From Acrocarpospora catenulata (lineage in GTDB: Bacteria; Actinomycetota; Actinomycetes; Streptosporangiales; Streptosporangiaceae), in contig NZ_JAHCST010000009.1 of the NCBI RefSeq assembly GCF_018476525.1, forward strand, positions 1 through 64,000: 64,000 nt of DNA. The letters run 5' to 3'. A program made the translations under genes and the position numbers. Position 1 is the stretch's first letter. Every line of letters starts with the position of its first letter. Of this stretch, positions 3,070-63,914 are shown piece by piece. The notes under the pieces were generated by a model. It did no database searches and had not been told where the DNA came from. It was given only the letters and a program-made list of their open reading frames with translations.

Positions 3070-3828
3070 TCATAGCGACTTGACCAGGACTCGTGAGACG
3101 CCCAGCGCGGCGGTCTTCACCGCGGGGGCCAGCCGGGCGGGTTGGAAACGGGCCACCGGCAGCGAGACCGACAGCGCGGCCACCACCCTCCCCCCTCTGA
3201 AGATCGGTGCGGCGATGCAGGCGTTGCCGAGCTGCGCCTCCTCACGCTCGTACGCCAGGCCCTGGACCTGGATCTGCCCGATCTCCTCCTCCAGGCGCCC
3301 CGCGTCCACGATCGAGCGCGGCGTTAGTCTGCGCAGTGGCCGGGAGAAGACCTCGTCGAGGAGTTCCTGGCCGGAGTAGGCCAGCAGCACTTTCCCCACG
3401 CCGGTGCAGGTGAGCGGTAGCCGCCCCCCGACGGCGGACGGCAGGGACAGCGACTCGTGGCCGCGGATCTTCTCCACGTACACCACGTCCAGCCCGTCGC
3501 GCACCCCCAGGTGGATCGTTTCGCGGGTGGCCTCGAAGAGGTCGTGCATGAACGGCAGCGCGGCGTGCCGCAGGTCCCGTTCGAGCGGGACGATGCTGCC
3601 GAGTTCGAACAGCCGCCGGCCCAGCAGGTAGCGGCCGTCCCGCCGGACGACCACGCCCAGCTCGGTGAGGTCGTTCAGTAGGCGCAGGGCCGTCGACTTG
3701 GGCAGCTGGCACCGGTGGGCGATGTCCACCAGGCGCAGCGGGCCCCCTGTCGGCCGGAACGCGTCCAGCATCAGCCATGTCTTTTCCAGCATCGAGAGCC
3801 GCTCTTCGTTCCGTCTCACGGAACTCAT
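3070..3828 (-). CDS. IclR-family transcriptional regulator
   Basis: 252 residues in the typical IclR layout: an N-terminal winged HTH (about 12-75, with LVDIAHRCQLPKSTALRLLN) and a C-terminal effector domain (about 80-250, with GKVLLAYSG and a late CIAAPIFRGGRVVAALSVS). IclR proteins bind small aromatic or organic acids. The gene is divergent from the meta-cleavage lower-pathway operon across 164 bp, so it very likely controls that operon and itself. The ATG at 3828 has no good Shine-Dalgarno; a GTG at 3819 is an alternative start. Confidence 0.92.
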   Translation of the reverse strand: MSSVRRNEERLSMLEKTWLMLDAFRPTGGPLRLVDIAHRCQLPKSTALRLLNDLTELGVVVRRDGRYLLGRRLFELGSIVPLERDLRHAALPFMHDLFEATRETIHLGVRDGLDVVYVEKIRGHESLSLPSAVGGRLPLTCTGVGKVLLAYSGQELLDEVFSRPLRRLTPRSIVDAGRLEEEIGQIQVQGLAYEREEAQLGNACIAAPIFRGGRVVAALSVSLPVARFQPARLAPAVKTAALGVSRVLVKSL

Positions 3829-3861
3829 TGTTGTGCAGGCGAAGCGTGCGCCGGTACCAAT

Positions 3862-3942
3862 GGAACCGGTGGCAGGGCCTCTGACCCGCTGGTATACGAG
3901 CGCCCGTGGGACGTGACCGCGTTCTGTTCAGCTTTCGGTTCC
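3862..3942. promoter_or_regulatory. Divergent IclR/hydratase promoter region with spaced inverted repeat
   Basis: GGAACCG at 3862-3868 is the exact reverse complement of CGGTTCC at 3936-3942, and further CCGGTACC-like half sites surround both arms. The region lies between the IclR regulator and the hydratase start. The arms are a plausible regulator-binding site, but this rests on symmetry and position only. Confidence 0.4.
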
Positions 3943-3992
3943 GGTACACGGACCTCTGCCTCCGTCTATCCTCAACCCCGCAGGAGCAGCAG

Positions 3993-4799
3993 ATGAACGA
4001 CCAGCGGTCCGAACACCTCAAGGCGGCGGATCGGCTGCTGGCGGCCGCGACGTCCGGCCGCCCGTGTGCTCCCGTCCGGGACCTGATCGGCACGGCGGCC
4101 GAGGGGTACGCCGTACAGGAGATCAACACCCGGCGGGCGCTGGCCGAGGGCCGACGGCCGGTGGGGCGGAAGATCGGCATCACCAACCCGGCGGTGCAGC
4201 GCCAGTTCGGCATCGACCAGCCCGACTTCGGCGTGCTCTTCGCCGACATGTGCCACCCCGAGGGCCTGCCCATCCCCTACGGCCGGTTCCTCCAGCCCAG
4301 AGCCGAGGCGGAGATCGCGCTGGTGATCGGCACGGACCTGGTCGGCGGCCCCTTCACCGTGGCCGATGTGATCCGCGCGGTCGAGTTCCTGCTCCCGGCC
4401 GTCGAGATCGTGGACTCCCGCATCACGGACTGGGACATCACCCTGGCCGACACGATCGCGGACAACGCCTCCAGCGGCGGCTTCGTCCTCGGGAACTCTC
4501 CCGTCGCCCTGAGCGGCCTGGACCTGAGAACGGCGGCGATGCGGATGACCCGCGACGGCGCGGAGGTCTCCTCCGGCACCGGGGCCGACTGCCTGGGTCA
4601 CCCGCTCAACGCGGCCACCTGGCTGGCCAACACCCTCGGCGGCACGGACTTCCCGCTGCGGGCCGGGGACATCGTGCTGACCGGCGCACTCGGCCCCGTG
4701 GTGCCCGTGGCGCCGGGGAACGTGTTCGAGGCGCGCATCGAGGGCGTCGGCTCGGTGACCGCGGTCTTCGGCCCCACTTCGGAGAACCAGGAACGGTGA
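3993..4799 (+). CDS. dmpE: 2-keto-4-pentenoate (2-hydroxypenta-2,4-dienoate) hydratase
   Basis: 268 residues of the fumarylacetoacetase-like hydratase family. Visible hallmarks are [19 protein letters not shown] near the N-terminus, [12 protein letters not shown] (metal-binding acidic residues), [21 protein letters not shown] and a C-terminal [13 protein letters not shown]. It converts 2-hydroxypenta-2,4-dienoate to 4-hydroxy-2-oxovalerate in the cytoplasm. The start is the ATG at 3993, with CAGGAG 7 nt upstream. It is followed by the acetaldehyde dehydrogenase 7 nt downstream. The order hydratase-dehydrogenase-aldolase matches the hsaE-hsaG-hsaF order of actinobacterial steroid degradation, but no ring-cleavage genes are present here. 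Confidence 0.92.
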
Positions 4800-4806
4800 A
4801 CGACCA

Positions 4807-5730
4807 GTGAAAATCGCGATCATCGGGTCGGGGAACATCGGCACCGACCTCATGTACAAGGCGCTGCTGTCGCGCACGACGGAGGTCGTGGCGATGGCCG
4901 GCATCGACCCCGGCTCGGACGGCCTGGCCCGGGCCCGCAGACGCGGACTCGCCGTCACCGCGGAAGGCGTTGACGGCCTGGTCGGCCTGCCGGGGTTCGC
5001 CGAGGTCGACGTCGTCCTCGACGCCACCTCGGCCAAGGCGCACCTGCGCAACAGCGCCGTCGTCCAGGAACACGGCAAGCGGATCATCGACCTCACCCCC
5101 GCGGCCATCGGCCCCTACGTGGTGCCGTCGGTCAACCTCGACCAGCACCTGACCGCGCCCAACCTGAACATGGTGACCTGCGGCGGCCAGGCCACGATCC
5201 CCATCGTGGCCGCGGTCTCCTCGCGGACGCGCGTACGCTACGCCGAGATCGTGGCCTCCATCGCCTCCAGATCGGCGGGCCCGGGAACCAGGGCGAACAT
5301 CGACGAGTTCACCGAGACCACCAGCCGGGCGATCGAACGGGTGGGCGGCGCGGACCGCGGCAAGGCGATCATCATCCTCAACCCGGCGGAGCCTCCCCTG
5401 ATCATGCGGGACACCGTCTACTGCCTCGTCGACGACTGCGACGAGGCGGCGGTGGCCGGCGCCGTCGAGGAGATGGTGGCACGTGTCCAGGAGTACGTCC
5501 CCGGCTACCGGCTCAAACAGCGGGTCCAGTTCAGCCCGATCGACGCCGAGGAGCCGGTCTGGACACTGGCGCCGGGCAGCAAGGGCGGCGTCAAGGTGAG
5601 CGTGTTCCTCGAGGTGGAGGGTGCCGCCCACTACCTGCCCGCCTACGCGGGCAACCTCGACATCATGACCTCGGCCGCGCTCCGTACGGCGGAGCGCATC
5701 GCCGAACTGAGGACGGAGGCCACCGCATGA
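4807..5730 (+). CDS. dmpF: Acetaldehyde dehydrogenase (acetylating)
   Basis: 307 residues with an N-terminal Rossmann loop [15 protein letters not shown], the catalytic cysteine near residue 125 in [12 protein letters not shown], and the family C-terminus. It oxidises acetaldehyde with NAD+ and CoA to acetyl-CoA and normally forms a channelling heterotetramer with the next-encoded aldolase. The GTG start lies 7 nt after the hydratase stop and the end overlaps the aldolase ATG by 4 nt (ATGA), so the genes are translationally coupled. Confidence 0.95.
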
Positions 5731-6734
5731 CGAAGATCTACGTCCAGGACGTGACCCTGCGGGACGGCATGCACGCCATCCGCCACCGCTACACCCTCGA
5801 TCAGGCCGTGCTGATCGCCCAAGCGCTCGACGCCGCCGGAGTGGCCGCCATCGAGGTGGCCCACGGCGACGGCCTGTCCGGCGGCAGCTTCAACTACGGG
5901 CCGGGCGCGCACGCCGACGCGGAGTGGATCGAAGCGGTGGCCGGCGCCGTACGGCAGGCGAAGCTGACCACGCTGCTGCTGCCCGGCATCGGCACCGTCA
6001 AGGATCTGCGCCTCGCCCACGCCCTCGGCGTCACCTCCGTGCGGATCGCCACCCACTGCACCGAGGCCGACATCTCCGCCCAGCACATCGCGACCGCCCG
6101 CGAACTGGGCATGGACGTGGCCGGCTTCCTGATGATGGCCCACATGGCCCCGCCGGACGTGCTGGCGGCGCAGGCCACGCTGATGGAGTCGTACGGGGCG
6201 CACTGCGTCTACGTGACCGATTCGGGCGGCGGCCTGACCATGGACGGCGTGCGCGAGCGCGTCCGGGCCTACCGCGACGCGCTGCGCCCGGAGACCGAGA
6301 TCGGCATCCACGCCCACCACAACCTCAGCCTCGGGGTGGCCAACTCGGTCGTCGCGGTGGAGAACGGCTGCCACCGGGTCGACGCGTCCCTGGCCGGCAT
6401 GGGCGCGGGCGCCGGAAACGCCCCCCTGGAGGTGCTGGTGGCGGTGGCCGACCTGCTCGGCTGGGAGCACGGGTGCGACCTGTACCAGCTGATGGACGCC
6501 GCCGACGACCTCGTCAGACCACTGCAGGACCGCCCGGTCCGCGTGGACCGGGAAACCCTCACCCTCGGCTACGCCGGGGTCTATTCCAGCTTCCTCCGCC
6601 ACGCCGAAGCCGCCTCCGCCCGCTACGGCGTCGACACCCGCGCGATCCTCACCGAGGTCGGCCGCCGCCGACTGGTCGGCGGCCAGGAAGACATGATCAC
6701 CGACATCGCTCTGGACCTCCGTGTCAGGGCCTGA
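5727..6734 (+). CDS. dmpG: 4-hydroxy-2-oxovalerate aldolase
   Basis: 335 residues of the HMGL-like TIM barrel: [12 protein letters not shown] near residue 10 (metal ligand and catalytic residues), [13 protein letters not shown] and the metal-binding [11 protein letters not shown]. The C-terminal communication domain that contacts the dehydrogenase is present. It splits 4-hydroxy-2-oxovalerate to pyruvate and acetaldehyde. The last 11 nt overlap the convergent P450 gene, with no room for a terminator between them. Confidence 0.95.
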
Positions 6735-7917
6735 TCCGCAGCGGCAGGGTGCCCCAGTGCAGGCGGAAGCCGTCCAGTTCGTCAGGGTCCACCGCGAGCT
6801 GTAGCCGGTGAAGTTCGCGGGCGATGCGGTCGAACATGATGCGCGCTTCGAGACGGCCCAAGGATGCGCCCAGGCAGAAGTGGATCCCGTGGCCGAAGGC
6901 GATGTGGCGATGGACGTCTGAGCGATGGATGTCGAACACGTCCGGATCGTCGAAGACCGCGGGGTCCCTGTTGGCGCCCCACAGGGACAGGCCGACGCGC
7001 TCGAACGCCGGGATCGTGCCCCCTGCGAGGTCGATCTCGCGGAAGGTGAAGCGCGGCGGGACGATCTCGACCGGCCCGCGGAACCGCAGCGTCTCCTCGA
7101 CGGCCGCACTCGCCAGTGACGGGTCGGCGAGGAGGTCCTGCCACTGTTCAGGATGGGTGAGCAGGAGCCGGATGCCGTTGACGATGACGTCGACCGTGGT
7201 CTCCTGGCCGGCGATGAGCAGGAGCTGCACCATCGCGACGAGCTCGTCGCGGTCGAGGGCGTCGCCCTGCGCCTCCAGGGCGACGAGCTCGGAGAGCAGG
7301 TCGTCCTCGGGGGCCGCTCTGCGGCGCGCGGCCAGGTCGTCGATGTAGGCGGCGAACGCCAGCGTGGCGGCGGCGTCGTGGTCGGCCGCGGAGACGATGG
7401 TCGCCGACCAGTCGCGAAACTGTGCGCGGTCCTCCTCGGGGACCCCCACGAGCTGGGCGATGACGTTGACCGGCAGCGGATCGGCCAGGTCGGCCACGCC
7501 GTCGAAGGTGCCGAGCCGGAGAGCACGGGCGACCAGTTGGTCGGCGACGTCGGCGATCCACGACTCCAGCTTCGCGACCATGCGGGCCGTGAACGCCTTG
7601 CTGACGAGCCCGCGCAGCCGGGTGTGGTCAGGTGGATCCAGGGAGATGAGCTGGCGCGCCGCGATCCGCTCGGCCTCGCTCTGCCAGTGGGCCACCGGCA
7701 GGTCCTGGGCCTGGTGCTTGAGCACCTCGTGGCCGATCGCCGGGTGCTGCAGGCCCTCGAGGACGTCGGCATGGCGGGCCACGACCCAGAACCGGTTGCC
7801 GGCGGGGTCGATTTGCGGGACGGGCCGGCCGGCGACCCGCACGCGGGCGTAGAACGCGTGCGGGTCGCGGCGCGTGTCAGGCTCCCACAGCTCCGACGGC
7901 CTGAACTCGACAGTCAT
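6724..7917 (-). CDS. Cytochrome P450
   Basis: 397 residues of a soluble class I bacterial P450. The I-helix oxygen-activation motif is AGQETT, the ExxR motif is EETLR, and the heme loop is [18 protein letters not shown] with the axial cysteine near residue 348. Redox partners are not encoded nearby, so it must use general ferredoxins. It starts 57 nt after the stop of the GH127 gene on the same strand and may be read through from it, but the function looks unrelated. The substrate cannot be inferred. Confidence 0.93.
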
Positions 7918-52223: not shown

Positions 52224-53282
52224 TCAGCCGAGCTTGGGGCCGACCTCGTGGGCGAGCCGTCGCATGGACTCCTTCCACGGCGCGGGGTCGTCCGAGTAGT
52301 CGTGGTTGTAGATCATCAGGGTGCCGAACTCCCCGTTGACCTCGCGCCAGGCCCGCAGTTTCTCCAGCACGGTCTCCGCGCTGCCGACGACCCAGACGTT
52401 GTCGCACAGCCAGTCGAGGTCGACGTCGCCGGAGGTCATGCCCGGCGTGAGCATCGTGTCGAGCAGGTTGTGGTGCTGGTAGATGGGCAGCAGGTACTCC
52501 TGCCAGGCGTGGCCCATCCCGCCCTCCTTGGCGAGGCGGCGCGCCTCGTCGTCGGTGTCGGCGATCAGGACGTCGCGGACGACGCGGTGGTCGGCGCGGC
52601 GTGGCGTGCGGCCCGCCGCCACGGCGGCGGTGGAGTAGGTCTCCCAGTGGTTGTTGAGCGCGTCCACCCCCGAGTACACCGAGACGGGCAGGTAGCCGCG
52701 CTGTCCGGCGAAACGCATGGACGGGGAGTTCATGCTCAGGCCCGTGACGCCGATGGGCACCTTGCCGCCCCACGGCAGCATGTTCCGCCACGGGTGGGCC
52801 GGGTCCTCCTCGGGGTAGCCGGCGTTCCAGAACTCGCCCTCGAACCAGAAGGGCTCGCCCGCCCAGATCTTCTCCATGATCTCGATGGACTCGGCCACCA
52901 TCCGGTGGTTGTTCTTCATGTCCCGGATGCCGCGCAGGAGCGCGTCGCCGGGGAAGGCGCCGGCGCCCACGCCGAGGATGTAACGGCCTTCGAGGATCTG
53001 CGTGAGCCAGCCGATCTGGATCGCCAGCGACCCGGGCTGGTGGTAGGGCAGCAGGTGGGCGCCGGGCGCGAGGGTGATCTGCTCGGTCTGGAGGGCGGCC
53101 GCCGCGATCACGAGCTCGGGGTTGGGCACCGACTCCCACGCCTGGGTGGCGTGCTCCCCGATCCAGAATTCGGTGAGTCCCGACTGGTCGGCGTGGATCG
53201 CCTGGTCGACGGCCCAGGAGAACACCTGCTTGGCCGTGCGCCGGGGCGACATGAACGGAGTGAAGAACATCGCAGCGTGCAA
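52224..53282 (-). CDS. Luciferase-type (LLM) flavin-dependent monooxygenase
   Basis: 352 residues of the bacterial luciferase TIM barrel: LTEFWIGEHATQAWESVPNP, ITLAPGAHLLPYHQPGSLAI, RYILGVGAGAFPGD and a long insert before VPIGVTGLSMNSPS. These enzymes need FMNH2 from a separate reductase; the flavin reductase domain protein at 54635 is the obvious partner. A TTG at 53282 has GGAAGGG 9 nt upstream; the ATG at 53270 is the alternative. First gene of a leftward unit with an operator 115 bp upstream. Confidence 0.92.
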   Translation of the reverse strand: MHAAMFFTPFMSPRRTAKQVFSWAVDQAIHADQSGLTEFWIGEHATQAWESVPNPELVIAAAALQTEQITLAPGAHLLPYHQPGSLAIQIGWLTQILEGRYILGVGAGAFPGDALLRGIRDMKNNHRMVAESIEIMEKIWAGEPFWFEGEFWNAGYPEEDPAHPWRNMLPWGGKVPIGVTGLSMNSPSMRFAGQRGYLPVSVYSGVDALNNHWETYSTAAVAAGRTPRRADHRVVRDVLIADTDDEARRLAKEGGMGHAWQEYLLPIYQHHNLLDTMLTPGMTSGDVDLDWLCDNVWVVGSAETVLEKLRAWREVNGEFGTLMIYNHDYSDDPAPWKESMRRLAHEVGPKLG

Positions 53283-54634: not shown

Positions 54635-55819
54635 ATGACGTCCATCGACCCGCTGTGGTTCCGCAGTGTCCTCGGCCAGTACCCGACCGGGGTCTGCGTG
54701 ATCACCGGCGTGGACCCGGAGACCGGACCGGCCGGCATGGTCGTCGGCTCGTTCACCTCGGTGTCCCTCGACCCGCCGCTCGTCGCCTTCTTCCCCGACA
54801 AGTCCTCCACGAGCTGGCCCAAGATCGAGCGCGCGGGCGCCTTCTGCGTCAACATCCTCGGCGCCGACCAGGAACAGGTCTGCCGCACCTTCGCGTCCAA
54901 GGCGCCCGACAAGTTCACCGACCAGCCCTACCGGCTCGGCGTCACGGGTTCGCCCATCCTCGACGGCACGGTCGCCTGGATCGACTGCCGGATCGAGTCG
55001 GTCCAGGAGGCGGGCGACCACTACATCGTCCTCGGGCTCGTCCAGGAACTGCAGATCGAACAGCCCCGGTTGCCGCTGCTGTTCTTCCAGGGGGGCTACG
55101 GCCGCTTCACCCCGCTGTCGCTCGCCGCGCCCGACAGCCACGGCGAACTCACCCGGCAGCTCCGCCACGTCGATGTGATGCGCTCGGAACTGGAGTCGCT
55201 GGCGGCCGATCTGCACTGCCGGGCGACGGCCACGGCGCAGGTCGGTGGCGAGGTCGTCATCGTGGCCAGCTCGTGGGCGGGCAGGACGCCGGACGACCGC
55301 AGCACGCTGGTCGGGCAGCGGCTGCCGTACGTGCCGCCGACCGGCTCGATCTTCGCCGCCTGGGGCTCCGACGCGCAGATCGACACCTGGTTCAAGGCGG
55401 CCCGCGCGGTCTGGGCCCAGCGGCCCGGCGACGTGGCCGAGGCCATGGCCCGGCACCGGCGCGCCCTGGCCATCGTGCGCTCCCGTGGCTACTCGCTCGG
55501 GCTGCTGAGCACCGGGCAGCGGGCGTTCGCCGAGCTGCTCCAGTCGGCCGCCGCCGATCCCGGCGCCGCGCCGCCGCCGGAGCTGTTCGCCATCGTGCAG
55601 AACCTCGTCTACGACCCCGAGGAGCTCACCGACGAGGCGCGCCGCGCGGTACGGCAGATCTCGGCCCCGGTCTTCGACGCGGAGGGGCGCGTCACGCTGG
55701 CGCTGACCGCCTACGCCTTCCACCGGCCGGAGACCGGCATCGAGGAGTACATCGAGCGGGTCCGCGAGGCCGCGGGGACCGCGACCAAGCTGATCGGCGG
55801 GCAGGCCCCGGGCGCCTGA
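54635..55819 (+). CDS. Flavin reductase fused to an IclR-type effector-binding domain
   Basis: 394 residues. Residues 1-165 are a flavin-reductase FMN-binding split barrel (RSVLGQYPTGVCVITGVDPE, VGSFTSVSLDPPLVAFFPDK, AFCVNILGADQEQVCRTFAS). Residues 175-390 match the ligand domain of IclR regulators (VDVMRSELESLAADLHCRAT, RSRGYSLGLLSTGQRAFAEL, ISAPVFDAEGRVTLALTAYA) with no DNA-binding helix. It would supply reduced flavin to the LLM monooxygenase, with the IclR part perhaps making it substrate-responsive. A related layout is known in some two-component monooxygenase reductases. Confidence 0.9.
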   Translation: MTSIDPLWFRSVLGQYPTGVCVITGVDPETGPAGMVVGSFTSVSLDPPLVAFFPDKSSTSWPKIERAGAFCVNILGADQEQVCRTFASKAPDKFTDQPYRLGVTGSPILDGTVAWIDCRIESVQEAGDHYIVLGLVQELQIEQPRLPLLFFQGGYGRFTPLSLAAPDSHGELTRQLRHVDVMRSELESLAADLHCRATATAQVGGEVVIVASSWAGRTPDDRSTLVGQRLPYVPPTGSIFAAWGSDAQIDTWFKAARAVWAQRPGDVAEAMARHRRALAIVRSRGYSLGLLSTGQRAFAELLQSAAADPGAAPPPELFAIVQNLVYDPEELTDEARRAVRQISAPVFDAEGRVTLALTAYAFHRPETGIEEYIERVREAAGTATKLIGGQAPGA

Positions 55820-55898: not shown

Positions 55899-56522
55899 TC
55901 AGTTCTCGGTGAACGCCAGGAACGTGGACATCGAGACGAACTCCGACGCCACCCGGGCCGCGCTGTAGGGGCCGGTCTTCCGGTACCACACCGGGATGTT
56001 GTTGACCGCGCCGAGCATGTAGAAGGTCGCCAGGCGCACATCCGTGCCCGGCCGCAGCTCGGCCGCGCCGTCCGTGAGGGTGTCGCGGAGGTAGTCGGAG
56101 AAGACCCGGCGGTGCTTGCGCACCGTGGCGGCGTTGTCGCCCGTCAGGTAGCGCCACTCGTTGAAGTAGAGGCTGACCCGTTCGACGTTGTTGAGATACC
56201 AGTGGATGATCTCCGTCAGGAACGCCTCCAGCCGCTTGCGCGGCGGGAGATCGCGCGCGGTGATGCCTTCCATGATCTGCACCGCCTGCTCGTGCGACTC
56301 CGCGAAGATGCGGAAGAGCAGGTCCTCCTTGGAGGAGATGTAGTGGTACAGACTGCCCTTGAGGACGCCGACCCGGTCGGCGACGTCCTGGACGCTCGCG
56401 GCCGAGTACCCCTTGGCGTAGAACACCTCCACAGCGGCCTGGAGCACCTCAGCCTCACGGTTGCGACGGTCGACGACGCGCCGGCCCTTGCTCTCGTTGC
56501 TCACAGAGCCTCTCTCTCGCAT
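55899..56522 (-). CDS. TetR-family repressor, probable cluster regulator
   Basis: 207 residues (201 if the GTG at 56504 is used). HTH SVQDVADRVGVLKGSLYHYI near 43-63, with the KGSLYHYISSKEDLL pattern of fatty acid/acyl-CoA-responsive TetR proteins (FadR/KstR2-like), then a TetR_C domain (YLNNVERVSLYFNEWRYLTG). An operator of the cluster type lies just upstream, so it is autoregulated; the same motif upstream of four other units makes it the likely master repressor, perhaps released by an acyl-CoA intermediate. Confidence 0.92.
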   Translation of the reverse strand: MRERGSVSNESKGRRVVDRRNREAEVLQAAVEVFYAKGYSAASVQDVADRVGVLKGSLYHYISSKEDLLFRIFAESHEQAVQIMEGITARDLPPRKRLEAFLTEIIHWYLNNVERVSLYFNEWRYLTGDNAATVRKHRRVFSDYLRDTLTDGAAELRPGTDVRLATFYMLGAVNNIPVWYRKTGPYSAARVASEFVSMSTFLAFTEN

Positions 56523-56588: not shown

Positions 56589-58049
56589 TCACTTTCGCAG
56601 GACGACGCTGAACTCGGGGGTGGTGACGGACACCGCCCGGGACCGCCGGTCCTGGGCGATGAGGTCGGTCAGGTTGCGGACGATGGAGGACGACATGCGC
56701 CGGGGGTCGGTCTGGATGGGGCCGGCCGCCAGCATCGCGTCCACCTCCTCGTCGGCGCACATGAAACGGAGCAGCAGCTCCTCGTCGCTCATGCCGGGGC
56801 GGAACCGCTGCCTGATCTCCTTGAGGGTCGGCTGCGGACGGGTCCAGTTCGCGAACTGGCCGGCCCGCGGCGAGGAAAGGATCTTGTCGAGCACGTCGGG
56901 GTCGACGGGCCTGGGCAGCGGCCCGTAGTGGCCCAGAGCGTACTGGACGCACTCGTCGGGGACGATGCTCCAGCGCCTGCCCGTCACCACGTTGAGCACC
57001 GCCTGAACGCCCACGAACTGGGAGAACGGCGTGGCCATGATGGGCTGCCCCAGCTCCTCGCGGACGCGGGGGATCTCCTCAAGCACCTCCGGGAGCCGGT
57101 GCGCCATCCCGTGCTCGGCCAGCTGGTTCTTGAGCGTGCCGGTCATGCCGCCGGGCAGCTGGTGCTGGTAGATCCGCGGGTCGTACTCCGCCATCCGGCC
57201 GACCTCGTAACCGGCGTCGGCGGCGGCCCAGATGAAGTTCTCCTCCACCGGCGCGAAACGGCTGGTGTCCAGGCCGTGCGTGTGCCCCAGCGTCTCCAGG
57301 ATGGGCATCATGCCCTCCGTGGACGGCAGGGACGGGCCGTTGGCCATGGGCCGGGAGGCCGTGTGCAGGATGGTGAAACCGGCTTTCATCGCCTCGATGT
57401 AGTTGTGCTGCGCGAGGCCGGTGGTGTTGTGGCAGTGGATCTCCAGCGGGACCGTCCCGGTGGCCTCGCGGATCGCCGGGAGCAGCGTACGGGCGCGCTC
57501 GGGGGTGAGCACACCGGCCGCGTCCTCGACGTAGACGGTCTTGATGCCGGGGAAGGTCGTCATCTCCCGCGCCCTGGCCGCGAAGAAGGCGTCGTCGTGT
57601 ACGTCGGTCAGGCCGTACATCACGGCGGGGACCGGGGTGCCGCCCGCCTCCGCCGTGACGCGGCAGACGCGTTCGAGGGTGGGCATGTCGTACAGGCAGT
57701 CGTACAGCCAGAACTGTTCGACGCCATGCTTGATCATCGTCTGAATGTACAGGTCAATGATCGCGTCGGGGGTGAAACTGAAGCCGATGACGCTGATCGT
57801 CCGCATACCGGCGCGGTTGATGCTGTTCGGCATGTTCCGCGTGAGGAAGTCGGTGCAGGCCCAGGGGTCGTCGGCGAACTGGCGCAGCAGCACGATGAAC
57901 ATGCCGGGGCCGGTGAGGTCGATGACCCGGAACCCTGTCTGGTCCAGGTGGGGCAGGGCCTGCGCGGCCTGGTAGGGGCGCATGCGCAGGCCCCAGAGGC
58001 TCTGCTGGCCGTCACGGAGTGTCTGGTCGACGAATTCGATGTGGGTCAT
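56589..58049 (-). CDS. HMGL-like biotin-dependent carboxyltransferase subunit, copy 1
   Basis: 486 residues of the oxaloacetate decarboxylase/pyruvate carboxylase/5S transcarboxylase type. N-terminal FVDQTLRDGQQSLWGLRMRP supplies the first metal ligand Asp, LEIHCHNTTGLAQHN the His-x-His pair, and HQLPGGMTGTLKNQLAE follows the barrel. At the position of the family's essential lysine (KDMAG) it has Glu: YVEDAAGVLTPERA, Glu near residue 175. The ATG overlaps the biotin carboxylase stop (ATGA). It should transfer CO2 between biotin and an unknown acceptor. Confidence 0.9.
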   Translation of the reverse strand: MTHIEFVDQTLRDGQQSLWGLRMRPYQAAQALPHLDQTGFRVIDLTGPGMFIVLLRQFADDPWACTDFLTRNMPNSINRAGMRTISVIGFSFTPDAIIDLYIQTMIKHGVEQFWLYDCLYDMPTLERVCRVTAEAGGTPVPAVMYGLTDVHDDAFFAARAREMTTFPGIKTVYVEDAAGVLTPERARTLLPAIREATGTVPLEIHCHNTTGLAQHNYIEAMKAGFTILHTASRPMANGPSLPSTEGMMPILETLGHTHGLDTSRFAPVEENFIWAAADAGYEVGRMAEYDPRIYQHQLPGGMTGTLKNQLAEHGMAHRLPEVLEEIPRVREELGQPIMATPFSQFVGVQAVLNVVTGRRWSIVPDECVQYALGHYGPLPRPVDPDVLDKILSSPRAGQFANWTRPQPTLKEIRQRFRPGMSDEELLLRFMCADEEVDAMLAAGPIQTDPRRMSSSIVRNLTDLIAQDRRSRAVSVTTPEFSVVLRK

Positions 58050-59410
58050 TCCCCACCCTCCAACCATGCGGGCAGAAACTCGTTCTCCACCCAGCGGGTG
58101 GTGACCGGGGACTCGCGGAACCGCTCGGTGCCCAGCACCGCGGCGTGGAACGGGATCGTGGTCTCGATGCCACGGACCTCGGTGCGGGCGAGCGCCCGCA
58201 GCATGAGGTCGATCGCCGCCGCGCGATCGGGCGCGTGGACGATGAGCTTGGCGACCATGGAGTCGTAGTAGGGCGAGATGGTCGCGCCGTTCTCGACGAA
58301 GGTGTCGACCCGTACGCCGTGCCCCTGCGGCGCCGTCCACCGCTCGACGCGTCCCGGCGAAGGGAGGAAGTCGCGCCGGGGGGACTCGGCGTTGATCCGG
58401 CACTCGATGGCGTGCCCGGACACCGTGATGCCGGGCTGCGCGACCGACAGCGGCTCGCCGCGGGCCACGCGGATCTGCTCGCGCACCACGTCCACCCCGG
58501 TCACCATCTCCGTCACCGGGTGCTCGACCTGGACGCGGGCGTTGAGCTCCAGGAAGACGAACTCGTTCCGGTCGGTGTCGACCAGGAACTCGACGGTGCC
58601 GGCGCTGACGTAGCCGAGCGCGCGGGCGAGCCGTACGGCCGAGTCGCGCATGCCGTCGCGGACGGCGTCCGGCAGTCCGACCGCGGGCGCCTCCTCGATC
58701 AGCTTCTGGTAGCGGCGCTGGGTCGAGCAGTCCCGCTCGCCAAGGTGTACGACGTTGCCGTGGGTGTCGGCGAGCACCTGGACCTCGACGTGCCGTGCGC
58801 GCTCGACGTACCGCTCCAGGTAGACCGTGCCGTCGCCGAACGCGCGCTCCGCCTCCTGGCTGGACCTCGCGAACGAGGCCCGCAGGTCGTCGGCCGAGCG
58901 GACGATGGTCATCCCGCGTCCGCCGCCGCCGGCTGACGCCTTGATGAGGCACGGATAGAGGTCGAGTTCCTCGGCGAGGGCGACGGCCTCCTCCGCGTCG
59001 GCGAGCCCGCGCGTGCCACCGCCCGTGGGGATGCCCAGGTCGGCCGCCATCTCGCGGGCCTTGAGCTTGTCGCCGGAGCCGCGCATGACGTCGGCGGGCG
59101 GGCCGATGAACGTGATGCCGTTCTCCTCGCACGCCGCGGCGAGTTCCGGCCGTTCGGACAGGAAGCCGTAGCCCGGGTGCAGGGCGTCGCAGTCCGTGGT
59201 GAGGGCGGCGGCCACCACGCGCTCGACGGATAGGTAGCTCTCCAGCGGGCTGGGCGGTCCGATGACCACGACGCGGTCGGCCAGGCGCGCCGCGAGCGTC
59301 TCCCGGTCCGCCTCCGAGCAGGCGAGGACGGTCTCCAGACCCTCGTCGAAGCAGGCGCGCGCCACCCGCGCGGCGATCTCGCCGCGGTTGGCGATGAGGA
59401 CCCGCCGCAC
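58046..59410 (-). CDS. accC: Biotin carboxylase
   Basis: 454 residues, close to AccC length. IANRGEIAARVARAC at the start, ATP-grasp KASAGGGGRGMTIV, HVEVQVLADTHGNVVHLGER, CSTQRRYQKLIEEAP and the catalytic LELNARVQVEHPVTE, which is complete. It carboxylates the biotin of the carrier protein with ATP and bicarbonate. It has no fused carrier domain, and the carrier gene ends 1 nt before its GTG. The gene order carrier-carboxylase-transferase argues for one dedicated complex. Confidence 0.94.
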   Translation of the reverse strand: MRRVLIANRGEIAARVARACFDEGLETVLACSEADRETLAARLADRVVVIGPPSPLESYLSVERVVAAALTTDCDALHPGYGFLSERPELAAACEENGITFIGPPADVMRGSGDKLKAREMAADLGIPTGGGTRGLADAEEAVALAEELDLYPCLIKASAGGGGRGMTIVRSADDLRASFARSSQEAERAFGDGTVYLERYVERARHVEVQVLADTHGNVVHLGERDCSTQRRYQKLIEEAPAVGLPDAVRDGMRDSAVRLARALGYVSAGTVEFLVDTDRNEFVFLELNARVQVEHPVTEMVTGVDVVREQIRVARGEPLSVAQPGITVSGHAIECRINAESPRRDFLPSPGRVERWTAPQGHGVRVDTFVENGATISPYYDSMVAKLIVHAPDRAAAIDLMLRALARTEVRGIETTIPFHAAVLGTERFRESPVTTRWVENEFLPAWLEGGE

Positions 59411-59411
59411 G

Positions 59412-59924
59412 TCAGCCCGCAGCCGGAACGATCGTGACCAGCGTCTGCCCGAACTCCACCGCGCCGGAGTTCGGCACGTGGATCGCGCCGACCACGCCGG
59501 ACACGGGCGCCGTCACGTTGTTCATGAGCTTCATGACCTCGACGATGCACAGGGTGTCACCCGCCTCGACGGCCGAGCCGACCTCGACGAACGGCGGCGC
59601 CCCCGGCTGCGGGGCACGCCAGAAGATGCCCACGGTCGGCGACGTCACCGCGATGCCGTCGGGCGCGGTGCCGACGGCGGTCGGCGGCTGCTCGACGACG
59701 GGCTGCGGAGCGGGAACGGGAGCGAGCGCCGGAGCTGCCGGAGTGACGGGGGGCGGGGCGGGCGCGGGCGGGGCGGCCACGGGCATCCCAGTGGCCACGG
59801 GTAGGGAGGCGCCGTTGCGTGACAGTGCGATCGAGGTGTCGCCGACGGTGATGAGCGCCTCGTCCCACTCGGACTTCTCCAGCGCGGCCAGGATCTGTCG
59901 GATCTCGTCGGGGCTCAGGGACAT
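59412..59924 (-). CDS. accB: Biotin carboxyl carrier protein
   Basis: 170 residues from the ATG at 59924 (GAGGAG upstream). A helical N-terminus (SPDEIRQILAALEKSEWDEA) as in AccB, a long Ala/Pro linker (about 45-85), and a biotinyl domain with the target lysine near 132 in CIVEVMKLMNNV, Val replacing the usual Ala of the AMKLM motif. The tail FGQTLVTIVPA closes the barrel. It carries carboxybiotin between the carboxylase and the transferase. Confidence 0.94.
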   Translation of the reverse strand: MSLSPDEIRQILAALEKSEWDEALITVGDTSIALSRNGASLPVATGMPVAAPPAPAPPPVTPAAPALAPVPAPQPVVEQPPTAVGTAPDGIAVTSPTVGIFWRAPQPGAPPFVEVGSAVEAGDTLCIVEVMKLMNNVTAPVSGVVGAIHVPNSGAVEFGQTLVTIVPAAG

Positions 59925-59950
59925 GTGTTGCTCCTCGGGTGCGGCGCCGG

Positions 59951-60784
59951 TCATCGGGGCACGATGGCGATGGGACGAAGGGGGGATCCCGTCGCGCCCT
60001 TGATGCGCAACGGCAGGGCGAAGAAGGTGAAGTCCCACGCCTCGGCGGCCGCCAGGTTCTCCAGATTGAGGGACTCCATGATGTAGAGCCCCCGCTCCAC
60101 CAGGAAGTGGAGGTGGACCTTGAGCGACACGATCGCCATGGCGGGCTTGTGCTCGAAGTTCATCGTGTCCGAGCCGCCGGCGAGGATTCCCCGGCTGCTC
60201 AGCCACTCCGCCCCGGCCCGGGTGACCCCGGGGAGGCCGTCGTCCACCAGCCCCAGGTACCGGTCCATGTCGTCGAAGTAGCGCATCCACCCGGTGCGCA
60301 CCAGGACGATCGAACCGGGCCCCGGCTCCTCCCTGTCGGCGAACCAGCTCTCGAGCTCGTCGGGCCCGATCCCGTCCGCCGGGGTGAGCGGCCGGCCGAA
60401 GAGCCGCTCCGCGTCGATCAGGTGACCGCGCCCGACCAGGGGCGGGATCTCCTCGGCGTCGGCGACCTCGAGACCGCCCGTCGGCGACTGCAGCCGCGTC
60501 ACGTCGCGGTCGCCGAAGATCCTGCCGTCCTTGGAGATGTGGCCGAGCGCGTCCACGTGGCTGCCCACGTGCGCGCCCGTGGTGAACACCTCCATCGAGG
60601 AGGAGATGCCGTCCGGATAGTTGTGCTGCCCGTGCAGCTTGGACAGCGCGAACGCGTACGGCGGATGGGCCGGGTGCCGGGTCATCCCTGGTTGCAGGCG
60701 CACCGCCAGGTCGTAGATGCGGACGTCGGGCGAGGTGGGCCACACGACGCTCGTGTCGATGTGCGATCCGGACCAGTCAGCCAC
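59951..60784 (-). CDS. Cyclase-family (kynurenine formamidase-like) hydrolase
   Basis: 277 residues with the metal motif HVGSHVDALGH (HxGxHxDxxxH) near 75-85 of the cyclase/formamidase superfamily, and GIGPDELESWF and GILAGGSDTMNFEH further on. It resembles the isatin/formamide or lactone hydrolases of this group. The ATG overlaps the end of the acyl-CoA ligase by 8 nt and the carrier gene follows 26 nt after it. It probably opens a ring or cleaves an amide or ester in the pathway. Confidence 0.9.
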   Translation of the reverse strand: MADWSGSHIDTSVVWPTSPDVRIYDLAVRLQPGMTRHPAHPPYAFALSKLHGQHNYPDGISSSMEVFTTGAHVGSHVDALGHISKDGRIFGDRDVTRLQSPTGGLEVADAEEIPPLVGRGHLIDAERLFGRPLTPADGIGPDELESWFADREEPGPGSIVLVRTGWMRYFDDMDRYLGLVDDGLPGVTRAGAEWLSSRGILAGGSDTMNFEHKPAMAIVSLKVHLHFLVERGLYIMESLNLENLAAAEAWDFTFFALPLRIKGATGSPLRPIAIVPR

Positions 60785-62351
60785 GGGGGCCCTCCTTCAC
60801 TGCGGGTGCCGCATCGCGGTCCCAGGCGGCGCCGACGCCGTCGCGGCGCAGCACGTACTTGTGGATCCGGCCGGTCTCCGTCCGGGGGAAGTCCTCGACG
60901 AACTCGATGTAGCGCGGTCGCATGAAGTCGCTCAGCCGGGTCTCCAGCCAGGTGGAGAGCTCCGCCTCGGTGAGGGCCGAGCCGGGGCGCCGGATGGCCA
61001 CCACCTTCACGTCCTCCTCGCTGAGTTCGGAGGGGACGCCGATCGCCGCGGCCTCCATGACGTCCGGGTGGTCGCTGACCGCCTTGTCGATGAAGAAGCT
61101 GCTGACGTTCTCGCCGCGCCTGCGGATGGTGTCCTTCATCCGGTCCAGGAACACGTAGTAGCCGTCGGGGCGCCGGAGCCCGACGTCGCCGGTGTGGAAC
61201 CAGCCGCCGGCCATCGCCTCGGCGGTCTTCTCCGGTTCCTTGAAATATCCGGACATGAAGGCGTCGGTGACGCGGGAGCGGACCAGGAACTGGCCCGGCG
61301 TGCCGTCCGGCACCTCCACGTCGTGCTCGTCCACCACTCTGGCCTCGACGTGTTCGAGCGGCACGCCCGTGGTGCCGGAGCGCACGTCCTGCGGCGGGTT
61401 GATGATGGCCATGGTGCCGGTCTCGGTCAGGCCGTACCCTTCCACGATGCGCACCCCGAGCCGCCGTTCGAGCGGCCGGTGGAGTTCCTCGGGCACCGGG
61501 GCGGCGAGGATGTAGCGGAGCGTCGTCACGCCGGAGGCCGCGTCGCCGGGCAGTTTGCTCAGCAGGGTGAGCATGGTGCCCATCACGTTGGTTACGGTCG
61601 CGCCGCTGCGTTCGATCCAGGACCAGAACCGGCTGAGCGAGAACCTGCCGTCCACGTGCACCGGCACACCGAGGTGGAGCCCGGCCATGAAGGTGGTCTG
61701 CTGGGCGTTGCAGTGGAACAGCGGCAGGCAGGTGTGGAGCACGTCGTCGAGGCCGAGCCCGAGATGCTTGGCGAAGTACCCGCCGGTGTTGACGTAACTG
61801 GTGTGCGGCAGCATGACGCCCTTGGGCGGGCCGGTCGTGCCGCTGGTGTAGATGATCCCGCAGGTCTCGCCGCCGCGGACGGCCACCGGGGCCGGCTCCC
61901 CGAGCGCGGGGTCGACCAGTTCGTCGTAGGCGATGCCGCCCGCTCCCCCGGCGACCACGATCCAGCGCAGGTGCGGGAGCGGCCCGATGGCGTCGAGCGC
62001 CGGGAGGAGCGAGGCGTGGATGACGATCCCGCACGCCTCGGAGTGGTCGAGGGTGTAGTGCAGCGCCTCCCCCACCGTGGCGGTGTTCACCGAGACGGCG
62101 ACGGCGCCGTGCCGGCTGACGCCGAGGAACGTCTCGACGAACTCGATCGAGTTCGGGAGCATGATCGCGACGTGCTCGCCCCGCCGGACCCCCGCCTGGG
62201 CCAGCCACGCCTGGCACCGCCCGGCGCGCAGCCAGAGCTCGCCGTAGGTCCGCGGCACGCCCAGCACGTTGACGGCGAGCGCGTCAGCCCGGCGCTCGGC
62301 ACGTAGCTCCATGAGTTCGTTGAGCGAGTCGTACGGGCTGTATGTGCGCAT
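60777..62351 (-). CDS. Acyl-CoA synthetase (AMP-forming, ANL family)
   Basis: 524 residues. P-loop IIYTSGTTGPPKGVMLPH near 175, GYGLTETG (A5 motif) and the C-terminal hinge YYVFLDRMKDTIRRRGENVS, then the Lys region FPRTETGRIHKYVLR. Closest in pattern to carnitine-CoA ligase (CaiC)-like enzymes. It activates a carboxylic acid to its CoA thioester. It heads the leftward unit ligase, cyclase, carrier, carboxylase, transferase, with an operator 38 bp upstream. Confidence 0.94.
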   Translation of the reverse strand: MRTYSPYDSLNELMELRAERRADALAVNVLGVPRTYGELWLRAGRCQAWLAQAGVRRGEHVAIMLPNSIEFVETFLGVSRHGAVAVSVNTATVGEALHYTLDHSEACGIVIHASLLPALDAIGPLPHLRWIVVAGGAGGIAYDELVDPALGEPAPVAVRGGETCGIIYTSGTTGPPKGVMLPHTSYVNTGGYFAKHLGLGLDDVLHTCLPLFHCNAQQTTFMAGLHLGVPVHVDGRFSLSRFWSWIERSGATVTNVMGTMLTLLSKLPGDAASGVTTLRYILAAPVPEELHRPLERRLGVRIVEGYGLTETGTMAIINPPQDVRSGTTGVPLEHVEARVVDEHDVEVPDGTPGQFLVRSRVTDAFMSGYFKEPEKTAEAMAGGWFHTGDVGLRRPDGYYVFLDRMKDTIRRRGENVSSFFIDKAVSDHPDVMEAAAIGVPSELSEEDVKVVAIRRPGSALTEAELSTWLETRLSDFMRPRYIEFVEDFPRTETGRIHKYVLRRDGVGAAWDRDAAPAVKEGPRG

Positions 62352-62388
62352 CTTTCTCTCCCCGGCGGGCCGGCGATCCGGCCTTCTC

Positions 62389-62404
62389 TACCGAATGGTT
62401 GGTC
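62389..62404. promoter_or_regulatory. Cluster operator 5, TACCGAATGGTTGGTC
   Basis: 38 bp upstream of the acyl-CoA ligase ATG. Fits the cluster consensus with one core change (T for C in CGGTTGG). Confidence 0.6.
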
Positions 62405-62447
62405 ACGCTAACGCAATAACGGGCACTGTCAAGGTACATTTCGGCCC

Positions 62448-63914
62448 CTACGACGTCGTGCCGCGCCTGAGGGTGATCTGGTAGCCGGAGCCCGAGATGC
62501 TCACCGCTCGCGCCCGTACTCCGCTCACCTGGGCGAGCTGGTCCACGACTCTGGCGAGCGAGGTCGGCGACGTCGTGGGCACCGGGCCCGCCGCCTTCAC
62601 CGCGTCCACCTCCTCCGCCGAGAACAGCGCCCTCAGCAGCAGTTCGTCGTCGGTGAGCGTGGCGCCGAGCTGGGCTCGCAGCTCACGCAGGGTGGGCTGG
62701 GGCCGCTCCCAGTTCGCCAGGCGGCGCCCGCGCGGGGATTCGAGCACGCGGTCGGCCACCTCGGGGTCGAGAACCCCGGCCACCGGTCCGTAATGGCCGA
62801 GGGCGTAGTGCACGACCTCGTCCGGAATCACCTCGTAGCGCCGGCCGGTCACCACGTTGCAGACGGCCTGGATGCCGACGATCTGCGAGAAGGGGGTCGC
62901 CATGATCGGGTGCCCGAGCTCGCGGCGCACCCGGGGGATCTCCGCCAGCACCTCGTCGAGGCGGTCCTCCATGCCGTACTGGGCGAGCTGGCTCTTGAGG
63001 CTGCCCGTCATGCCGCCGGGCAGCTGGTGGTCGAACGGGCGTACCGAGTACTCGCTCGGCGCGCCGATCTCGTACCCGGCCGTACGGGCCTCGTGTTCGA
63101 GGCGCTCGGCCACCGGGTCGAACCTGGTGCTGTCCAGGGCGTGCGTGTGGCCGAGGGCGACGATGTTGTCGACCGTGGCCTCCGTCGAGGGCAGCGAGGG
63201 CCCGTTGGCCAGCGGACGCGAGGCGGTGTGCAGGATGTCGATGCCCGCGCGTACGCCTTCGAGGTACACCTGCGGCGCCAGCCCCGTGTTGGTGTGGCAG
63301 TGCAGTTCGATGGGGACGCCGTCGACCGCCCGGACCAGCGCGGGCAGCAGCGTGCGGGCGCGCTCGGGGGTCAGGATCCCGGCGGCGTCCTCGACGTAGA
63401 CGGCCTCGACGCCCGGCCAGCGCGCCATCTCGGCGGCGCGGACCGCGAACCACTCGTCGGTGTGGACGTCCGTCAGGCCGTACATCACGGCGGGGACGGG
63501 CGCGGCGCCGGCGGCGGTCACGACGTCCGCGATCCGGCGCATCCTCGGCAGGTCGAGCAGGCAGTCGAGGATCCAGAAGCTGTCGATCCCGTGGCGGGCC
63601 ATGCAGGTGATCCACAGGTCGACCACCGAGTCGGGCGCGAAGCCCATGCCGCCGACCGAGATGGTGCGCGTCGCGGTGCGCAGGTGGGAGTTGCGCAGGC
63701 CGCGCGCCAGGTGGTCGACGGTCTCCCAGGGGTCGTCCCTGAAGGTGCGCATGAGCACGGCGAACATGCCCGCGCCCGTCATGTCGACGGCGTGGAAGCC
63801 CGTGCGGTCGATGTTCTCCAGCACCGGCATCGCCTGGTAGGCGCGCATGCGCAGGCCCCACAGGCTCTGCTGGCCGTCGCGGAGGGTCTGGTCGACGAAC
63901 CGGATCTCGGTCAC
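62448..63914 (-). CDS. HMGL-like biotin-dependent carboxyltransferase subunit, copy 2
   Basis: 488 residues, clearly paralogous to copy 1 (shared FVDQTLRDGQQSLWGLRMR, PSLPSTEATVDNIVALGHTH, HQLPGGMTGSLKSQLAQYGM). It also has Glu (near 175) in YVEDAAGILTPERA in place of the family lysine, and keeps LHCHTNTG as the metal His pair. It is coupled to an upstream gene by a GTGA overlap and ends 44 bp before operator 5. Two copies may be partners in one complex or act on different acceptors. Confidence 0.92.
   Translation of the reverse strand: MTEIRFVDQTLRDGQQSLWGLRMRAYQAMPVLENIDRTGFHAVDMTGAGMFAVLMRTFRDDPWETVDHLARGLRNSHLRTATRTISVGGMGFAPDSVVDLWITCMARHGIDSFWILDCLLDLPRMRRIADVVTAAGAAPVPAVMYGLTDVHTDEWFAVRAAEMARWPGVEAVYVEDAAGILTPERARTLLPALVRAVDGVPIELHCHTNTGLAPQVYLEGVRAGIDILHTASRPLANGPSLPSTEATVDNIVALGHTHALDSTRFDPVAERLEHEARTAGYEIGAPSEYSVRPFDHQLPGGMTGSLKSQLAQYGMEDRLDEVLAEIPRVRRELGHPIMATPFSQIVGIQAVCNVVTGRRYEVIPDEVVHYALGHYGPVAGVLDPEVADRVLESPRGRRLANWERPQPTLRELRAQLGATLTDDELLLRALFSAEEVDAVKAAGPVPTTSPTSLARVVDQLAQVSGVRARAVSISGSGYQITLRRGTTS

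Follow-up and report, generated by a model that had tools for sequence, protein, structure and literature searches.

At its right end, the window, by which we mean the whole stretch of 64,000 nucleotides analyzed here, encodes two carboxyltransferase (CT) paralogs in which a glutamate stands where a carbamylated lysine (Kcx) would be expected. As the latter has been regarded as a fixed element of the CT active site, the locus raises two questions: can such an enzyme dispense with the carbamate, and what does it carboxylate? A natural and conserved Glu substitute would let the role of the carbamate be separated from the remaining catalysis. The enzyme class itself is already known, and the novelty lies in the Kcx-to-Glu variant; in the literature, we found nothing pertinent on this variant, on mycofactocin-linked ketone carboxylation or on monoterpene carboxylases.

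The operon and the substituted position

Both CTs belong to a minus-strand operon, transcribed in the order CT1, acyl-CoA ligase, PF04199 cyclase/hydrolase, biotin carrier (BCCP), biotin carboxylase (BC) and CT2, and flanked by a TetR regulator, a flavin reductase, NTF2-like proteins and a luciferase-like (LLM) oxidoreductase. The principal features are:

62448-63914, minus strand: CT1, carboxyltransferase subunit; GTG start, 488 aa; Glu175 replaces Kcx (codon GAG, 63390-63392)
60777-62351, minus strand: acyl-CoA ligase, AMP-forming, 524 aa; 57% identical orthologues near Glu-type CTs in genomes G742, G745 and G746
59951-60784, minus strand: PF04199 cyclase/hydrolase, 277 aa; PF04199 match
59412-59924, minus strand: BCCP, biotin carrier; above the TIGR00531 cut-off; EVMKL motif with biotin Lys132
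58046-59410, minus strand: BC, biotin carboxylase; expected ATP-grasp and catalytic motifs present
56589-58049, minus strand: CT2, carboxyltransferase subunit; ATG start at 58049, 486 aa; Glu175 replaces Kcx (codon GAG, 57525-57527)
55899-56522, minus strand: TetR-type regulator; conserved near most tier-I Glu-type clusters (see below)
54635-55819, plus strand: flavin reductase (PF01613), likely supplying reduced flavin
52224-53282, minus strand: LLM oxidoreductase; 57-64% identical orthologues in six other Glu-type clusters

The span 56589-63914, to which the sequence-only reading had assigned the CT pair, is correct and also takes in the four genes lying between them, from the ligase to BC. 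The ligase and cyclase reading frames overlap, as do those of BC and CT2, the last two by 4 bases. Past the window edge, the same contig encodes an LLM protein, thiolase-like and OB-fold-like proteins, a second PF04199-like protein, an acyl-CoA dehydrogenase-like pair, a second ligase, an SDR and an ABC transporter, the names of those proteins without a family search being drawn from sequence and BLAST similarity.

As read from their ORFs, CT1 and CT2 are full-length CTs of the pyruvate carboxylase (PC) type with Glu at residue 175, encoded by GAG in both. In the HMMER alignment, the VEDAAG motif of CT1 aligns free of gaps with IKDMAS of 5ks8, LKDMAG of 2nx9 and LKDMAA of 1rqb (the 5S subunit); hence, the Glu sits precisely on the carbamylated-lysine position, bearing out the earlier proposal of a Lys-to-Glu change at the catalytic site of both paralogs. 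The Asp and His-x-His metal ligands, which had been described as kept, are indeed retained as Asp13, His205 and His207, and in the final alignment they are invariant across all 23 Glu-type CTs that we collected, within a set of about 100 invariant positions. The carbamylated-lysine ligand is missing throughout this clade, Glu175 being present in 23/23, whereas the remaining 38 CTs in the tree comprise 37 with Lys and one with Tyr. Because of this distribution, the Glu of CT1 and CT2 is neither a chance occurrence nor a sequencing error. A search for a substitute lysine elsewhere, an alternative that the sequence-only reading had itself allowed for, recovered no conserved Lys column among the 23 sequences (the best column has 14/23), and this candidate was dropped.

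Origin and spread of the glutamate-type clade

To place the variant, we used a tree of the 23 Glu-type and 38 other CTs built without the Kcx-position column. All 23 actinomycete Glu-type CTs form one clade (95/87), whose sister is a Tyr-bearing CT from Novosphingobium (together 100/99), and CT1 groups with the CT of the metagenome-assembled genome L010. The earlier suggestion that two enzymes changed alike point to a subfamily thus stands in part: the subfamily is real and monophyletic, but it reflects one inherited event rather than two, the tree lending no support to independent changes in CT1 and CT2 and pointing to inheritance from a common ancestor. The Glu clade lies outside a 21-row Hpe-type clade (see below), and both fall within a 51-row group (98/91) that excludes PC and OadA. 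Relatives of this larger group are also found on plasmids L048 and L051, whose host strains are known bisphenol A degraders, an occurrence that fits 4-hydroxyacetophenone as an intermediate.

Glu-type CTs occur in Pseudonocardia, Amycolatopsis, Saccharopolyspora, Rhodococcus plasmids, two uncultured actinomycetes and the window genome. In contrast, none was recovered from 342 further genomes belonging to the window's family at an E-value of 1e-105, a rarity that fits horizontal transfer. By genomic context, they fall into two tiers. Tier I (the window, G742-G747, W01 and W03) is characterized by PF04199 cyclases, an LLM oxidoreductase, paired acyl-CoA dehydrogenases, TetR and often mycofactocin-type SDRs, with some of these genes missing from some clusters; most tier-I genomes encode two distinct Glu-type CTs. 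Tier II (L016, L017, L045, L087, L089 and L090, together with the Tyr-type L047) instead carries a dikinase-like module of a swivel-domain protein, a 516-aa protein and a PPDK_N protein. The 516-aa protein (e.g., L017:12258-13808) has no Pfam or NCBIfam match, accompanies the other two in all tier-II clusters and is probably part of a small-molecule dikinase.

Two further CTs were treated as separate variants. The sister of the Glu clade, encoded at L047:8001-9458 on plasmid pSA1 of Novosphingobium resinovorum, has Tyr instead of Kcx, reads His-x-Asn rather than His-x-His, and adjoins the dikinase-like module. L036 (from G002), a distant CT-like protein omitted from the final tree owing to its long branch, has Leu for Kcx, with an Asn-x-His motif replacing His-x-His.

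The metal site without a carbamate

A Foldseek search with the AlphaFold model (pLDDT 79, from 11 sequences) recovered 5ks8 (E = 1e-31) and 1rqh (9e-30), indicating the same fold as 5S, OadA and the CT of PC; this match does not extend to the geometry of the site, and several active-site loops are poorly predicted. It is plausible that Glu175 is a direct metal ligand. Since carbamyl-lysine exceeds Glu in length by about three atoms, the site geometry must then shift. In the amidohydrolase superfamily, Glu is known to replace carbamyl-lysine, and no lysine occupies the Kcx position of the metal-binding DRE-TIM metallolyases at large. Likewise, an HOA aldolase encoded elsewhere in the window has Thr there (YVTDSGG). 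By analogy with these cases, metal binding can survive without carbamyl-lysine.

The same comparisons open an alternative, bearing on the ligand step alone, in which the metal is held by Asp, His and His with water or substrate, and Glu175 acts in the second shell or as an acid/base, as in the DRE-TIM metallolyases. Beyond the Thr of the window's HOA aldolase, it draws support from the Tyr of the sister CT and the Leu of the outlying one, and from the profile's additional matches to structures of HMG-CoA lyase, homocitrate synthase and HOA aldolase. However, an invariant Glu (23/23) suggests a specific role. We regard this alternative as a serious contender whose chances fall a little short of even.

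The acceptor and the two carboxyltransferases

The nearest characterized relatives of the window system carboxylate ketones: HpeCBA of Rhodococcus rhodochrous GD02 acts on 4-phospho-acetophenone and 4-phospho-acetovanillone at the ketone methyl with one ATP, accepting phosphorylated ketones only and not free phenols; production of HpeCBA in E. coli did not succeed (PMC9618137). Our Hpe-type reference consists of plasmid relatives with the same operon layout, namely the Lys-type operons L049 and L058, which encode a PEP-utiliser, PPDK_N, BCCP, BC, CT and HAD phosphatase, followed by a ligase and an amidohydrolase; their gene order is that of hpeHICBAD, their families match, and their protein masses are close to the published GD02 values. 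By order and mass, HpeB (49.3 kDa) fits BC (49.5-49.7 kDa) and HpeA (57.4 kDa) fits CT (54-55 kDa), the reverse of the HpeB/HpeA labels in Table 1 of PMC9618137.

Like Hpe, XccBCA of Aromatoleum and the Acv carboxylase of Sphingobium SYK-6, the window operon combines a separate BC, BCCP and PC-type CT with a CoA ligase in a catabolic setting. It differs in having two CTs and in their Glu, where the Hpe-like CTs keep Lys (for Hpe, Xcc and Acv as judged from L049 and L058). Moreover, Hpe needs the kinase HpeHI, a HAD phosphatase and an amidohydrolase, whereas the window cluster lacks all three, with neither a two-component kinase nor a HAD phosphatase adjacent to the operon. A kinase was considered and rejected: the cluster has none, and its contig (C171) has no PEP-utilising dikinase. 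Since HpeCBA takes phosphorylated ketones only, the acceptor in the window differs from that of Hpe and, in the absence of a kinase from the cluster, is probably not phosphorylated. The acetophenone (Apc) and acetone carboxylases follow the same strategy of ketone carboxylation, then CoA ligation and cleavage; they are biotin-independent and of a different family, unlike the window system with its BC and biotin carrier.

With the CTs of 5S, OadA and PC, those of the window share the fold, the Asp and His-x-His ligands, a biotin partner and matches above cut-off to PF00682 (HMGL-like TIM barrel) and PF02436 (PYC_OADA domain). They differ in the Glu, in scores below the NCBIfam cut-offs (CT1: 325 versus 402 for PRK09282, pyruvate carboxylase subunit B; 282.8 versus 756.5 for oadA) and at the positions that we take to be Thr882 and Tyr628 in PC numbering. 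The former, a proton-relay residue, is Gly (Gly304) in 23/23 Glu-type CTs, neither Thr nor Ser, and is also Gly in L049 and L058; the latter is Phe, Met or Trp, a loss of Tyr common to the Glu clade and the Hpe-like CTs. In RePC, T882A abolishes oxaloacetate decarboxylation (PMC5895798). The sequence-only reading had proposed altered chemistry or an altered acceptor. A monophyletic Lys-to-Glu subfamily with several further active-site changes relative to the pyruvate enzymes makes a different acceptor likely, and kinship with the Hpe-like CTs, combined with the shared loss of pyruvate-enzyme residues, makes a ketone its best-supported identity.

Hence, we propose, with about even confidence, that the operon encodes a three-component biotin-dependent carboxylase of the ketone type, acting on a non-phosphorylated ketone, with Glu175 as a direct or water-bridged metal ligand. 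Briefly, BC would use ATP to carboxylate the biotin on BCCP, and a CT subunit would move the carboxyl group onto the carbon alpha to the ketone of a catabolic intermediate. The CoA ligase might then activate the resulting beta-keto acid for cleavage by hydrolases or thiolases. Glu175, with Asp13, His205 and His207, would hold a divalent metal directly or via water, and the site could assemble independently of CO2. The two CTs would probably differ in acceptor or act in two successive carboxylations. If true, this would open a wider range of ketones to carboxylation by biotin enzymes, useful for CO2 fixation and for degrading terpene- or lignin-derived ketones.

As to the substrate, Glu-type clusters contain CoA ligases, acyl-CoA dehydrogenases, thiolases, an LLM oxidoreductase and cyclases, some with mycofactocin-type SDRs; the P450, SDR and LLM genes found in sister clusters suggest a compound that is hydroxylated and oxidised, and that it is a terpenoid is a guess. 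A more specific version, in which a lineage with an encoded Glu for carbamyl-lysine carboxylates non-phosphorylated, possibly terpenoid-like ketones via two CTs in two successive carboxylations, is offered tentatively and is somewhat unlikely to hold in full.

It is quite doubtful that these CTs have kept a 2-oxo acid as acceptor, or use a CoA ester supplied by the adjoining ligase, with Glu as a tolerated ligand swap. The Pfam matches, the fold shared with PC, OadA and 5S and the ligase gene itself speak for it, but the positions conserved in pyruvate enzymes are altered throughout the Glu clade, and the nearest operons of known type use ketones. The two-acceptor step has a rival of its own: CT1 and CT2 could form one heteromeric CT instead of two carboxylases. 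This would suit the dimeric state of PC-type CTs, the single BC and BCCP shared by both and the recurrence of CT pairs in several genomes; yet in G743 and G744 the second (beta) CT comes with a separate BC and BCCP, and a lone Glu-type CT occurs in G742, G748 and G749, making a heteromer rather improbable. Finally, although the residue lost is a metal ligand in characterized enzymes, inactivity or decay of either CT is exceedingly improbable for full-length, operon-borne proteins with such invariant ligands and positions.

Elsewhere in the window, positions 3070-7917, encoding an IclR regulator, an MhpD-like hydratase, acetaldehyde dehydrogenase, the HOA aldolase and a P450, look like a meta-cleavage lower pathway. 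Positions ~16300-40900, with a sugar ABC transporter, LacI-type regulators and secreted glycosidase-like proteins, look like a carbohydrate-use region.
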